A DNA stretch of 64,000 bases from Subtercola boreus (GTDB taxonomy: Bacteria; Actinomycetota; Actinomycetes; Actinomycetales; Microbacteriaceae). Where the stretch lies: NCBI RefSeq assembly GCF_006716115.1, contig NZ_VFOO01000001.1:1054001-1118000 (forward strand), read 5' to 3'. Positions 5,730 to 53,875 of this stretch are shown piece after piece. Within the stretch, counting starts at the first letter, position 1. The number at the start of each line of letters is the position of its first letter. Under the pieces are notes generated by a model. The model was given only the letters and a program-made list of their open reading frames with translations, was not told the DNA's origin and did no database searches. Made by a program: the position numbers and the translations under genes.

Positions 5730-5788
5730 TGGCGCGGGGGCGCAGTTCCGTCCCGACGCAACCTCCGCCAGTGTGAAAGGTGATCCAT

Positions 5789-7102
<1,314 letters not shown>

Positions 7103-7105
7103 ACC

Positions 7106-8389
7106 GTGGGAGTTCGCACCAGCGCGGCCGTCGCAGTCGGTCGGGCTGTCCGGGTCGCCGCGCGTCTGCGTGGCGGTGGCTCGGCCATCCCGGGCACCGT
7201 CGCTCTTCGCATCGCACCCCGTTTTCTCGAAGACACCATCTCGGCCATCCCCCGCGGGGTGGTCGCGGTGTCGGGTTCCAACGGCAAGTCGACCACCACG
7301 AACATGTTGGCGGCCATCCTCCGTGAACACGGCCTGAAGGTGTTCACGAACCCCTCGGGAGGCAATCTCCCGCAGGGCATCGCGTCGTCCGTGCTGTCGC
7401 AGGTGTCTGTGGGCGGCCGGCTCGACGCCGACATCGCGATCCTCGAGGTGGATGAGGGCTACGGCCCCAAGCTCGCGAAGCTGCTGAAGCCCCGTACAGT
7501 TCTGCTGCTGAACATCCAGATCGACCAGCTGAACCGGTACCACGAGCCGGACCGGGTGGTGCGGATGCTCGAACAGGTCGCCCTGACAGCGACCACCTCG
7601 CTCATCCTGAACCGGGACGACAACCATCTCGTCGATCTCGACACGCGCATCCCGGGCTCGCGTGAGGTGTCGTTCTTCGGTGCCAGCCCCGAGCTGATCT
7701 CGGGTGCCGCTCATGGGGTGGCGTCGGCCGACCGGTTCGGCGACGTGCACGCTGAGGCCGGCGGCCGCGAAGCTGCGGTCACAGTCACGGCTCTCGGCGA
7801 CTCGAGTGCGACGCTCAGTGTCGACGGTACACAGATCGAGGTGCGGCTCCCCGCACGCGGGTTGCACTACGCCCTGGATGCCGCGGGCGCTGCCGCCACG
7901 GCCCGATCCGTTCTCGGAGCCGACTTCCGCCCCGAGAAGGTCACAGCTGCCCTCGGCGGTCTCTCGACGGTCTACGGTCGCGGCGAGCTCCTGGAGGTGG
8001 GCGGCGAGAGCATCGAGATCATCATGATGAAGAACCCCGCGAGCCTGCAGCTGAACCTCGACTCGCTGGCGACAGAGCCCGAGCAGGTGTTCATGGCGAT
8101 CGACGAGGGGACGCCGGATCCGTCGTGGATCTACGACATCGACCTCTCCGCCCTCTCGCACGTCGATGTGATCACCGGGTCGAAGGCGTGGCAGTTCGCT
8201 GTGCGGCTCGGCTATGCGGGTATCCCGGTCGGCTCCGTCGACCTCGACGTGCGCGCGGCGCTCCGCCAGTTCCTTGCGCTCCCGCGCCCCACGAACGGTC
8301 GCAAGACGATGATTCTCAACTACGAACAGATGATGGGGATTCGCAAGATCCTCGGATTCAAGGAACTGGAAGGCGGCGGCCAGGCATGA
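7106..8389 (+). CDS. murT: MurT-like Mur ligase, cysteine-free variant
   Basis: Family role: with GatD, MurT amidates the alpha-carboxyl of D-Glu in lipid II, using ATP and glutamine-derived ammonia. This 427-residue protein has the Mur ligase P-loop (GSNGKSTTTN, 57-66), the LLNIQIDQLNRYHE stretch (134-147) and the C-terminal DUF1727 region (about 305-415). Departures from the family as I recall it: no cysteine anywhere, so the four-Cys zinc ribbon expected around 185-225 is missing. The NR(T/S)GAN motif reads NPSGGN (82-87). The conserved R-A-x-D near the C terminus reads KAWQF (Q363), and that Asp is thought to complete the GatD catalytic triad. It is coupled to gatD by an ATGA overlap. Start GTG 7106 is 3 bp after sigA. 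Its true amine donor may not be ammonia. Confidence 0.85.
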   Translation: MGVRTSAAVAVGRAVRVAARLRGGGSAIPGTVALRIAPRFLEDTISAIPRGVVAVSGSNGKSTTTNMLAAILREHGLKVFTNPSGGNLPQGIASSVLSQVSVGGRLDADIAILEVDEGYGPKLAKLLKPRTVLLLNIQIDQLNRYHEPDRVVRMLEQVALTATTSLILNRDDNHLVDLDTRIPGSREVSFFGASPELISGAAHGVASADRFGDVHAEAGGREAAVTVTALGDSSATLSVDGTQIEVRLPARGLHYALDAAGAAATARSVLGADFRPEKVTAALGGLSTVYGRGELLEVGGESIEIIMMKNPASLQLNLDSLATEPEQVFMAIDEGTPDPSWIYDIDLSALSHVDVITGSKAWQFAVRLGYAGIPVGSVDLDVRAALRQFLALPRPTNGRKTMILNYEQMMGIRKILGFKELEGGGQA

Positions 8390-9243
8390 GCGAGCTCCCC
8401 ACCGCTTCCCGGCCCGAGGCACCCGCGTCGGAGCGGTTGAACATCCTGCATCTCTTCCCGCGCACGCTCGGGATGAACGGTGAGAACGGCAACGTCGACA
8501 TCCTCGTGCACCGGGCCGAGGCCCGCGGACTCAGCGTGACGGTGAAGCGGTACGAAGACGGCGACTCCCTGCCCGCCGCGGTGGACCTGGTGTTCATCGG
8601 CAGCGGACCGGTCTCCGCCCAGCTCGAGACGCACCCGTACCTGAGCGTGGTGGCGCCGCCGCTTCGTGCGCTGGCTGCGCACGACGTGCCGATCCTCGCG
8701 GTCGGCGCCGGATTCCAGCTGCTCGGGGAGTCGGTGACGCTCGCCGACGGCAGCGTCCTCACGGGCGCTGGCGTGTTCCCGGTGACGACGGTCGTGGCCG
8801 GTGAGCGCGTCGTGGGTGACTTCGTCGTGTCGTCACCCGTGCTCGGCACGGTGGTCGGGTTCGAGAACCGCGGATCGTACGTCGACATCGGCGATGCAAC
8901 GCCGATCGGTCATGTCGTGTACGGTCGCGGGAATGTGGCCGCAAACGGTCCCGGCGCGTCTGCGGGTGCGGCGGCGATCGCTGCCTCGGGGGCGACCGCC
9001 GAAGGCACCGTGCGGGTGGCTCCGGATGACCGTGTCGAGGGTTACTGGGTCGGCAACCTGGTCGGCACCCACCTCCACGGTCCGGTGCTCGCGAACAACC
9101 CCGCCCTCGCAGACTGGTTGCTCACCGCAGCGCTCGCCCGCCGCGGTGACACGCTCCCCGCGGCGCCTGCCTCGCTCGCCGAGATCGACCGCCGCGCCGC
9201 CAAGGCCCGCGACACCATCGCCGCCGCCCCCCTCTCCGAGTAA
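8386..9243 (+). CDS. gatD: GatD-like class I glutamine amidotransferase lacking its catalytic cysteine
   Basis: 285 residues; the family partner of MurT that normally hydrolyses glutamine and passes ammonia to it. The family framework is clear: NILHLFPRTLGMNGENGNVDIL (from residue 19), DLVFIGSG, VVGFENRGSYV, and the C-terminal THLHGPVLANNP containing the catalytic His (H231). The nucleophile elbow that reads (V/I)CGGYQLLG in family members reads VGAGFQLLG here, with glycine at 107 where cysteine is expected. The protein has no cysteine at all. It therefore should not hydrolyse glutamine. A roughly 25-residue Ala/Gly-rich insertion lies before the final GNLVGTHLHG. Translation is coupled to murT (ATG 8386 overlaps its TGA). 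The 33-residue C-terminal extension is unremarkable. Confidence 0.85.
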   Translation: MSELPTASRPEAPASERLNILHLFPRTLGMNGENGNVDILVHRAEARGLSVTVKRYEDGDSLPAAVDLVFIGSGPVSAQLETHPYLSVVAPPLRALAAHDVPILAVGAGFQLLGESVTLADGSVLTGAGVFPVTTVVAGERVVGDFVVSSPVLGTVVGFENRGSYVDIGDATPIGHVVYGRGNVAANGPGASAGAAAIAASGATAEGTVRVAPDDRVEGYWVGNLVGTHLHGPVLANNPALADWLLTAALARRGDTLPAAPASLAEIDRRAAKARDTIAAAPLSE

Positions 9244-9376: not shown

Positions 9377-11464
<2,088 letters not shown>

Positions 11465-11693
11465 GGGTGCTCCTAGCTGGGACGTGACTGAAGATGACGG
11501 GTGAAGGGCGCGGAAGCCGTTCAGACGACTTAGCCTAGTGAGGTCAACCGTCATCCACCCCGATGACACGCAGCTGTCAACCCTCCGCTACGCGCAGAGC
11601 GAAACTCAGCCGAATGTAACATCGAGGGAACATACTCATGCTTGTATGGGTTCTACAGATTGTCTGAGGTAACGACCCGTGAGGAGCCAGAAG

Positions 11694-52344: not shown

Positions 52345-53244
52345 ATGACTGACTCCTCCTCGTCCTCTGTCGGCAGCGACCGCGTCAAACGCGGACTCGC
52401 GGAAATGCTGAAGGGCGGCGTCATCATGGACGTCGTGAACGCCGACCAGGCGCGCATCGCCGAAGATGCCGGTGCCGTGGCCGTGATGGCCCTCGAGCGT
52501 GTGCCCGCCGACATCCGTTCCCAGGGCGGCGTGGCCCGCACCAGTGACCCCGACCTGATCGAGGGCATCCAGAAGGCCGTCTCGATTCCCGTGATGGCGA
52601 AGGCGCGCATCGGGCACTTCGTCGAGGCGCAGATCCTCCAGGCACTCGATGTGGACTACATCGACGAGTCCGAGGTGCTCTCGCCCGCGGACTACGTGAA
52701 CCACATCGACAAGTGGAACTTCACGATCCCCTTCGTCTGCGGTGCCACCAACCTCGGTGAGGCGCTCCGCCGCATCAACGAGGGTGCGGCGATGATCCGG
52801 TCGAAGGGCGAGGCCGGCACGGGCGACGTCTCGGAGGCCACGAAGCACATCCGCAAGATCCTCGGCGAAGTGCGTGCCCTGACCGCGCTCGCCCCCGACG
52901 AGCTCTACGTTGCCGCGAAGGAGCTCCAGGCTCCGTACGCACTGGTCGCGGAGATCGCGTCGACCGGCAAGCTCCCCGTCGTGCTGTTCACCGCTGGTGG
53001 TGTCGCGACGCCGGCCGATGCAGCCATGATGATGCAGCTCGGCGCCGATGGCGTCTTCGTCGGATCCGGCGTGTTCAAGTCGGGCGACCCGGCCAAGCGT
53101 GCCGCCGCGATCGTGAAGGCGACCACGTTCTACGACGACCCCCAGGTCATCCTCGAAGCCTCCCGCGGCCTTGGCGAGGCAATGGTCGGCATCAACGTGA
53201 GCGACATCCCCGCGCCCCACCGCCTCGCGGAACGTGGCTGGTAG
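52345..53244 (+). CDS. pdxS: Pyridoxal 5'-phosphate synthase subunit PdxS
   Basis: 299 residues. TIM-barrel synthase subunit that builds PLP from ribose 5-phosphate, glyceraldehyde 3-phosphate and ammonia delivered by PdxT. Conserved stretches: [49 protein letters not shown] (Schiff-base lysine), [16 protein letters not shown] (second lysine) and [10 protein letters not shown]-like [14 protein letters not shown]. Overlaps pdxT by 11 nt. Confidence 0.97.
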
Positions 53245-53875
53245 CCCGGTCGCCGACTCGCCCGCAGTGCGCCCGGGGCCCGGCCCCGTCGGCGTGCTGG
53301 CCCTGCAGGGTGACTACCGCGAGCATGCCGCGGTGCTGGAGTCCTTCGGGGCCGAGGTCATCACGGTACGCCGCCCCGAAGAACTCGCCCGCGTATCCGG
53401 GCTGGTCATTCCCGGCGGCGAATCGAGCGTGATGGACAAGCTGTCCCGGATGTTCGGGCTCGCCGGGCCCCTGAAGCAGGCGATCGCAGCCGGACTCCCG
53501 GTCTACGGCACCTGCGCTGGGCTGATCATGCTTGCCGACCGGATGATCGACGGTATCGCCGGGCAGCAGAGCCTCGGCGGGCTCGACATCGCCGTGCGTC
53601 GGAACGCCTTCGGGCGCCAGCGTGAGTCGTTCGAGGTCGACGTGCACGTTCCAGAGCTCGGCGACCCGCCTGTGCACGCGGTCTTCATCCGCGCGCCCGT
53701 GGTCGAGGAGGTGGGGGAGCGGGCATCCGTTCTGGCCGCTCTCAGCGACGGGCGAGTGATCGCCGTCGAGCAGGGCAACCTTCTCGGCACCTCGTTCCAC
53801 CCCGAGATGACGTCCGACTTCCGCTTCCATCGACGTTTCCACAATCGGGTTCTCGAGGTCGGTTTCCACAGTTAG
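53234..53875 (+). CDS. pdxT: Pyridoxal 5'-phosphate synthase glutaminase PdxT
   Basis: 213 residues, class I glutaminase partner of PdxS. The catalytic triad is intact: C94 in [10 protein letters not shown] and H189/E191 in SFHPEMT; the PGGESSVM oxyanion strand is at 60-67. It serves as an in-window contrast to the GatD-like protein, which has lost its cysteine. GTG start at 53234 inside the 3' end of pdxS. A terminator follows. Confidence 0.96.

Follow-up and report, generated by a model that had tools for sequence, protein, structure and literature searches.

A MurT/GatD pair lacking its glutaminase nucleophile in Subtercola boreus: a candidate ligase for the type-B peptidoglycan bridge in part of the Microbacteriaceae

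In type-B peptidoglycan the alpha-carboxyl of D-Glu, which is amidated by MurT/GatD elsewhere, bears the interpeptide bridge. The closest described relatives of the genes studied here are the MurT/GatD lipid II isoglutaminyl synthases of Staphylococcus aureus (6gs2), Streptococcus pneumoniae (6fqb) and Streptococcus pyogenes (9sq9). We have examined a divergent murT-gatD pair of Subtercola boreus, located on a stretch of 64,000 nucleotides (contig NZ_VFOO01000001.1, positions 1,054,001 to 1,118,000 of the forward strand) that we refer to as the window. The pair has the same domains, gene order, coupling and fold as the known synthases and shares their Mg, P-loop, acceptor and triad-Asp residues. 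It differs from them in lacking the GatD Cys, the channel Tyr, the gate Arg and the Arg of the R-A-x-D motif, in having a shorter DNAAD loop, and in the changed Asn residues of the adenine pocket.

In S. aureus, amidation needs both subunits in every case, and neither alone suffices (PMC3266927). Replacement of the GatD nucleophile by glycine (C94G) abolished the use of glutamine and left the use of ammonia at pH 8.5, while at pH 7.5 neither the C94G complex nor the wild type used ammonia or NH4Cl (PMC3266927). The window GatD carries the same Cys-to-Gly change as this laboratory mutant, in which GatD was still required (PMC3266927); in the window, however, the change is natural, extends over a whole clade and is accompanied by further changes in both subunits. 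S. aureus MurT is also described, with the data not shown there, as having stood in for MurE in vitro, yielding an Ala-Glu-Lys tripeptide (PMC3266927). Both features thus have precedent: a GatD that is needed in spite of its dead active site, and a MurT that accepts a diamino acid. MurE and the other Mur ligases share their overall fold with the window MurT (Foldseek), and the acyl-phosphate chemistry is common to both (PMC3266927). Unlike them, the window MurT has no UDP-binding N-terminal domain and no recognisable MurE amino-acid motif, and it retains a GatD partner. Among the titles and abstract openings listed in our searches of a mostly open-access literature, none named an enzyme that hangs the bridging diamino acid on D-Glu, and no paper of that literature mentioned MurT, GatD and Microbacteriaceae together.

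Residues lost and kept in the MurT/GatD pair

Both genes of the window pair are complete and coupled (Table 1), and neither product contains a single cysteine, as a preliminary description of this sequence had claimed. The nucleophile elbow of GatD reads V106-G-A-G-F-Q-L-L-G, with G107 at the position of the Cys in its relatives, and MurT reads K360-A-W-Q-F at the position of R-A-x-D; both departures had been reported correctly. Pfam places Mur_ligase_M and MurT_C in the window MurT and GATase_3 in the window GatD, all above cut-off, and a PDB search also assigns the two products to MurT and GatD. The NCBIfam equivalog cut-offs are missed by far, with 108.9 of 800 bits for MurT and with 86.2 of 400 and 110.4 of 450 bits for GatD. 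AlphaFold single-chain models were obtained at a mean predicted local distance difference test score (pLDDT) of 87.0 for MurT and 87.3 for GatD; their best Foldseek matches are MurT chains (ranks 1-13) and GatD chains (ranks 1-9), respectively. There is one MurT_C match in the window's genome. A second GatD was looked for with the GATase_3 profile, and none was found among its five matches in this genome: the window GatD ranked first, PdxT second and a 399-amino-acid frame at C1:3635760 third, the other two falling below the cut-off.

To place the window pair among its relatives, the MurT sequences of 120 Microbacteriaceae genomes were sorted via PF08353, which gave four groups. Group I has the zinc ribbon of MurT and the GatD Cys in all three Microbacteriaceae loci (L013-L015). 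In group II the R-A-x-D motif and the GatD Cys are present and the ribbon is absent (L002-L012). Group III, the kind found in the window, has neither ribbon nor GatD Cys. Group IV has CxxC pairs in MurT; a GatD was visible in six of its seven loci (L016-L022), in each case without the Cys.

We compared 78 group III rows (two repeats dropped) with 57 canonical rows (39 of group II and 18 of group I), taking residue roles from PMC6113224 and PMC6085368. Present in 57 of 57 canonical rows and in 0 of 78 group III rows are the GatD nucleophile Cys (C94 in S. aureus), the GatD channel Tyr (Tyr30 in S. pneumoniae; N31 in the window), the MurT gate Arg (Arg135; I139 in the window) and the Arg of R-A-x-D. 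The Asp of that motif, also invariant in the canonical rows, survives in 7 of 78 group III rows, with Glu in 18 more (Q363 in the window); since S. pneumoniae, which amidates, reads R-H-S-E at this place, only the Arg of the motif separates the groups cleanly. The GatD catalytic His (H189 in S. aureus) is found in all 57 canonical rows and in 48 of 78 group III rows, the window included (H231). The loop with the DNAAD motif in MurT is 8 residues long in 57/57 canonical rows and 5 residues long in 78/78 group III rows.

Other functional residues have been kept. The P-loop Lys (K61), the Mg and acceptor residues E114, D116, N87, D140 and R144, and the MurT triad Asp (D338 in the window) are present in 57/57 canonical and 78/78 group III rows. 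By alignment, D338 corresponds to D349 of S. aureus and D355 of S. pneumoniae, and D349 is the residue that completes the catalytic triad of the S. aureus enzyme (PMC6113224). Loss of the triad Asp was considered and rejected, because D349 answers to the kept D338 and not to the Asp of R-A-x-D. Judged from these alignments, the pair has lost the nucleophile of its glutaminase together with parts of the route for ammonia; its ligase site is mostly intact, and its nucleotide pocket has changed. The earlier claim of a lost glutaminase is borne out in this form, with several channel residues gone along with the nucleophile.

The absence of cysteine is not an artefact of sequence quality, since PdxT in the same window, our internal control, retains the motifs given in Table 1; this too had been argued in the preliminary description. 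Sequence error and gene decay are ruled out by the 78 of 78 non-identical clade rows that lack the GatD Cys and the MurT Arg of R-A-x-D, which is more than chance would give, and by purifying selection. In 10 pairs, the ratio of nonsynonymous to synonymous differences (pN/pS) was 0.06-0.31 for murT and 0.15-0.44 for gatD, values by which both genes are under purifying selection. The weaker constraint on GatD than on MurT is what a structural partner would be expected to show.

Distribution of the cysteine-free pair

In a tree of whole MurT sequences (quick method, midpoint root), group III forms one clade with a Shimodaira-Hasegawa-like approximate likelihood ratio test (SH-aLRT) value of 99, comprising 80 rows in which two places, L031/L199 and L197/L266, are each entered twice. 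The clade stands beside group II (Micrococcaceae, Bifidobacteriaceae, Actinomycetaceae), with which it shares the missing ribbon, whereas group II keeps the catalytic residues. Its members are Microbacteriaceae and one Actinomycetes metagenome-assembled genome (MAG) without a stated family (L062). When 60 further Microbacteriaceae loci were inspected, 59 belonged to group III and one (L145) to group II by motif.

A wider scan, in which 48 of 80 loci were examined, gave 47 loci with a GatD, and the Cys is kept in 41 of these. It is kept in Kocuria, Arthrobacter, Bifidobacterium, Actinomyces, Mycobacterium, Corynebacterium, Micromonospora and Clostridium, all of which have type-A walls. The six Cys-less cases are Amnibacterium and L062, both of group III, plus four MAGs from the Firmicutes that belong to a different lineage (L078, L079, L086, L092). 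MurT in these four MAGs has the ribbon, and their GatD shows the elbow ANGSSG (AIGGSG in L092) with no His at the catalytic place; by its sequence this is a separate loss of the glutaminase. From other families of the same order 20 loci were fetched, and the Cys is kept in 19 of the 19 GatD found there. The best MurT bit score outside the Microbacteriaceae was 291.6, against at least 309.4 for 21 matched members of the family, in a survey whose negatives are weak because four candidates per genome were scored.

The preliminary description had asked whether loss of the GatD Cys and of the MurT ribbon follows type-B walls. For the Cys, such a link agrees with the confinement, in this survey, of the window-type loss to one Microbacteriaceae clade and one MAG. 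The four-Cys ribbon is indeed absent from the window MurT, but it does not track wall type. It is also missing in MurT of Kocuria, Arthrobacter, Bifidobacterium, Actinomyces, Mycobacterium and Corynebacterium, and the two CxxC pairs are absent in 39 of 39 group II rows, so that ribbon loss is uninformative on type B. As a type-B marker it was therefore rejected.

Within the Microbacteriaceae the occurrence of MurT is uneven. In a survey of 299 genomes, with at most five candidates scored per genome, there were 56 in which the MurT alignment matched nothing at better than 1e-20. No MurT was found in 27 of these 56 genomes or in Microbacterium sp. K24 when every candidate was scored with the window MurT; weak Mur-ligase-like matches were the most that appeared. 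PF07685 was run on 35 genomes, two of them Microbacterium, and gave no match of GatD strength in the MurT-less ones. A group III-type MurT is present in 10 of 59 Microbacterium genomes and none in the other 49, all candidates having been scored. These 49 genomes contradict the statement that murTgatD is universal in Actinobacteria (PMC6085368). Aurantimicrobium minutum (G055) has a canonical group I pair (L014), some genera of the family have group II alone, and an Amnibacterium genome (G145) has one pair of group II and one of group III, on two contigs.

The sigA-parE interval and its alternative cassettes

The gene sigA precedes murT in 78 of the 80 group III loci. The next gene after gatD is parE in 38 loci, an alanine-racemase-family gene in 30 and an ATP-grasp gene in one, and in 11 nothing was recognised in the fetched stretch. 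The window has parE on the strand opposite to murT-gatD, as do L142, L148, L155 and L166. One genome (G111) contains a second, divergent group III pair (L172; G111:C3:380500-385500) for which no neighbouring sigA was found; the normal copy of this genome (L171) is at sigA.

Table 1. Features of the window around the murT-gatD pair, with the internal control
Feature	Coordinates	Strand	Remarks
murT (group III)	7106..8389	+	GTG start 7106, 427 amino acids, no zinc ribbon
gatD (group III)	8386..9243	+	ATG start 8386, 285 amino acids, glutaminase site dead
ATGA overlap, murT stop / gatD start	8386..8389	+	
sigA (rpoD-type sigma factor)	5780..7102	+	left border of exchangeable site
parE (topoisomerase subunit)	9377..11569	-	right border of site
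PdxT, internal control for cysteine content	53234..53875	+	GTCAG, FHPEM present

What occupies this site in other members of the family? We located sigA in 23 MurT-less Microbacteriaceae genomes and in seven genomes with group I or II. In all seven of the latter, and in three of the 23 MurT-less genomes (G017, G047, G057), parE follows sigA within about 600 bases. Among the remaining MurT-less genomes, sigA of G040 lies at a contig edge, and the other 19 loci were fetched. A CofE-like gene comes after sigA in 18 of the 19 (L347-L364), at a distance of at most 75 bases in 17 and of 1.4 kb in G018. An ATP-grasp gene is present in 16 of these 18 loci and a racemase-family gene in 12, with at least one of the two in each. 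In the nineteenth (G045, L365) the gene set after sigA reads as an ATP-binding cassette transporter, with no CofE-like gene. Pfam identifies F420_ligase (PF01996), ATPgrasp_ST (PF14397) and Ala_racemase in the genes of L353, L354 and L356. Two of the CofE-like proteins score 24.2 and 30.6 bits, where 180.65 are required of a true F420 ligase; a role in F420 synthesis is therefore improbable for them.

Group IV MurT directly follows sigA in all seven of its loci, with an ATP-grasp gene behind it in four. Its GatD has an elbow of the FTHNALEVLG type, without Cys. Group II copies were not next to sigA in the cases inspected, namely L145 and the five group II genomes in which parE comes after sigA. 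Coincidence is a poor explanation for the presence of two lineages with a dead GatD, III and IV, at the same site. At three further loci (L377 in G049, L023, L024) a CofE-like gene is immediately followed by a ribboned MurT and a gene with weak likeness to GatD, so that both ligase kinds stand side by side in one genus. In other families of the order (L373, L375, L376, L380) the CofE-like domain forms the C-terminal part of a protein of 830-960 amino acids with asparagine-synthase and GATase domains, which is possibly a wall amidase-ligase fusion.

MurT and the CofE-like gene exclude each other across the family. Among the 299 Microbacteriaceae genomes, 243 have a MurT of any group (I-IV) and 46 a CofE-like gene (E < 1e-70; at most nine candidates scored per genome), 0 have both and 10 have neither; all 46 genomes with the CofE-like gene fall among the 56 without MurT. 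In Microbacterium, with all candidates scored for both genes, the 49 genomes without MurT all have the CofE-like gene and the 10 with MurT all lack it, leaving 0 genomes with both and 0 with neither. The corresponding Fisher values, which ignore kinship, are 1e-44 for the family and 1.6e-11 for Microbacterium. A distant CofE-like copy (1e-33 to 1e-38) is present in three MurT genomes (G049, G112, G134), and no CofE-like gene was found in the 10 genomes with neither cassette when all candidates were scored. In twelve genera (g7, g8, g44, g53, g68, g69, g70, g73, g74, g75, g77, g78) one species carries group III and another the CofE-like gene, which indicates that the exchange happened repeatedly.

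We infer that the Microbacteriaceae use the sigA-parE interval as a locus for bridge ligases, filled by alternative cassettes: the group III murT-gatD pair; a ribboned MurT with a different dead GatD; or a CofE-like gene with an ATP-grasp gene, a racemase-family gene or both. It is tempting to go further and regard the interval as a switchable wall-bridge locus, where non-homologous amide-ligase cassettes are swapped, even within a genus, and where the resident cassette sets the amino acid on D-Glu, e.g., D-diaminobutyrate (D-Dab) for the group III pair. We offer this extension tentatively, at slightly less than even chances.

Proposed function and competing explanations

The group III pair is probably a glutamine-independent ligase for the wall. 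It would form amide bonds with ATP and would have given up glutamine as its source of nitrogen. MurT would activate the D-Glu alpha-carboxyl in lipid I or II for coupling to the amine of an amino acid in free form; the likeliest such amino acid is D-Dab, D-ornithine (D-Orn) or D-Lys, with which the type-B bridge would start. GatD would be retained since MurT needs it structurally. That the pair attaches the bridging diamino acid to D-Glu, and does so in part of the Microbacteriaceae only, is a narrower proposal toward which we lean with some reserve. The points we count in its favour are the residue signature, the single clade, purifying selection, the sigA site, the exclusion with the CofE-like gene, the racemase-family neighbour in 30 of 80 loci, the Rhodoluna wall described next and the behaviour of S. 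aureus C94G.

Rhodoluna lacicola (G009) carries a group III pair (L028). Its wall is of type B2beta/B10 with Dab, and partial hydrolysates gave D-Ala-D-Dab and Gly-D-Glu (PMC4156110), peptides that agree with a bridge on the D-Glu carboxyl. Clavibacter nebraskensis (G031) also has a group III pair (L161); Pontimonas salivibrio (G027) has a MurT match at 1.5e-119, and a member of its genus (L158) belongs to group III. From these few names one might guess that the pair goes with directly attached D-Dab. Two tandem alanine-racemase-family genes lie away from the sigA site in the window's genome (G000; C1:282071-284505) and in G007, G031 and G080, and one of those in the window's genome may supply the D-diamino acid.

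A number of observations weigh against a diamino-acid ligase. The DNAAD-type loop, likened to the lysine site of MurE, has three residues fewer in all 78 rows, not improved, and with this shortening no conserved MurE-like motif for amino-acid binding was found in group III MurT. Part of the glutaminase residues remain, with the triad Asp kept throughout and the GatD His in 48 of 78 rows. The racemase may be a plain alanine racemase, and in G013 the copy at the sigA site is the only match found. The wall type is known for only a minority of the genomes compared, and 10 of the 299 (genera g17, g45, g47, g57) have neither cassette. Microbacterium has type-B walls, and 49 of its 59 sampled genomes lack the pair. 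The walls of this genus contain the diamino acids D-Orn, L-Lys or, in some, Dab (PMC10757982). Finally, two adenine-pocket Asn residues of MurT have become Y255 and D258 in the window. At these positions group III has Tyr (90% of rows) and Asp (97%), respectively; canonical rows have Asn in 90-94% and 100%. One or the other position answers to N267 of S. aureus MurT, whose N267Y variant is inactive (PMC6113224). His254, adjacent to this pair of clade-wide replacements, is invariant in group III. The nucleotide pocket of MurT may have been rebuilt.

The pair is thus rejected as a universal type-B enzyme. The suggestion in the preliminary description that it would explain type-B walls in general does not survive the Microbacterium genomes with a CofE-like gene instead, the genomes with neither cassette and the canonical pair of Aurantimicrobium; taken as a whole, the interpretation given there is partly supported.

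Other activities would account for part of the same evidence. An enzyme that still makes D-isoglutamine, now from free ammonia, would suit the position of group III next to amidating-type MurT in the tree and the kept triad Asp; yet a mere switch of nitrogen source needs no change in the gate Arg, the channel Tyr, the R-A-x-D Arg or the loop length, and the carboxyl in question bears the bridge in type-B walls, as the Rhodoluna peptides agree. The S. aureus C94G complex cuts both ways, since with MurT it amidates from ammonia in vitro at pH 8.5 and makes no use of ammonia or NH4Cl at pH 7.5, the wild type behaving likewise at the lower pH (PMC3266927). We consider this explanation rather unlikely. 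The substrate could also be glycine or another amino acid, or the pair could add the residue at position 3 instead of the bridging diamino acid: the altered C-terminal half and the DNAAD-type loop show only that the amine or acceptor side has changed, and S. aureus MurT is capable of the MurE reaction in vitro (PMC3266927). The racemase-family neighbours point instead to a D-amino acid, and we regard such a substrate or position as unlikely.

The third possibility is that the pair has no ligase activity and is a pseudo-complex, a regulator or a scaffold. A catalytically dead GatD that evolves faster than its MurT would be consistent with this, as would the changed adenine-pocket Asn, given the effect of N267Y on the S. 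aureus enzyme (PMC6113224). However, the P-loop Lys together with E114, D116, N87, D140, R144 and D338 is retained in 78 of 78 clade rows, and other ligase families replace the pair at the same site; we hold this possibility to be very unlikely.

Read as a ligase that may join the bridging diamino acid to D-Glu, the group III pair is a concrete candidate for the type-B bridge ligase, with a clear residue signature and, at a single locus, a replacement experiment carried out by nature. If this is true, loss of the ammonia supply, with the dead subunit kept, can turn an amidotransferase into an amino-acid ligase, and annotation based on homology would lead one to expect isoglutamine even in walls for which the cell may not make it.

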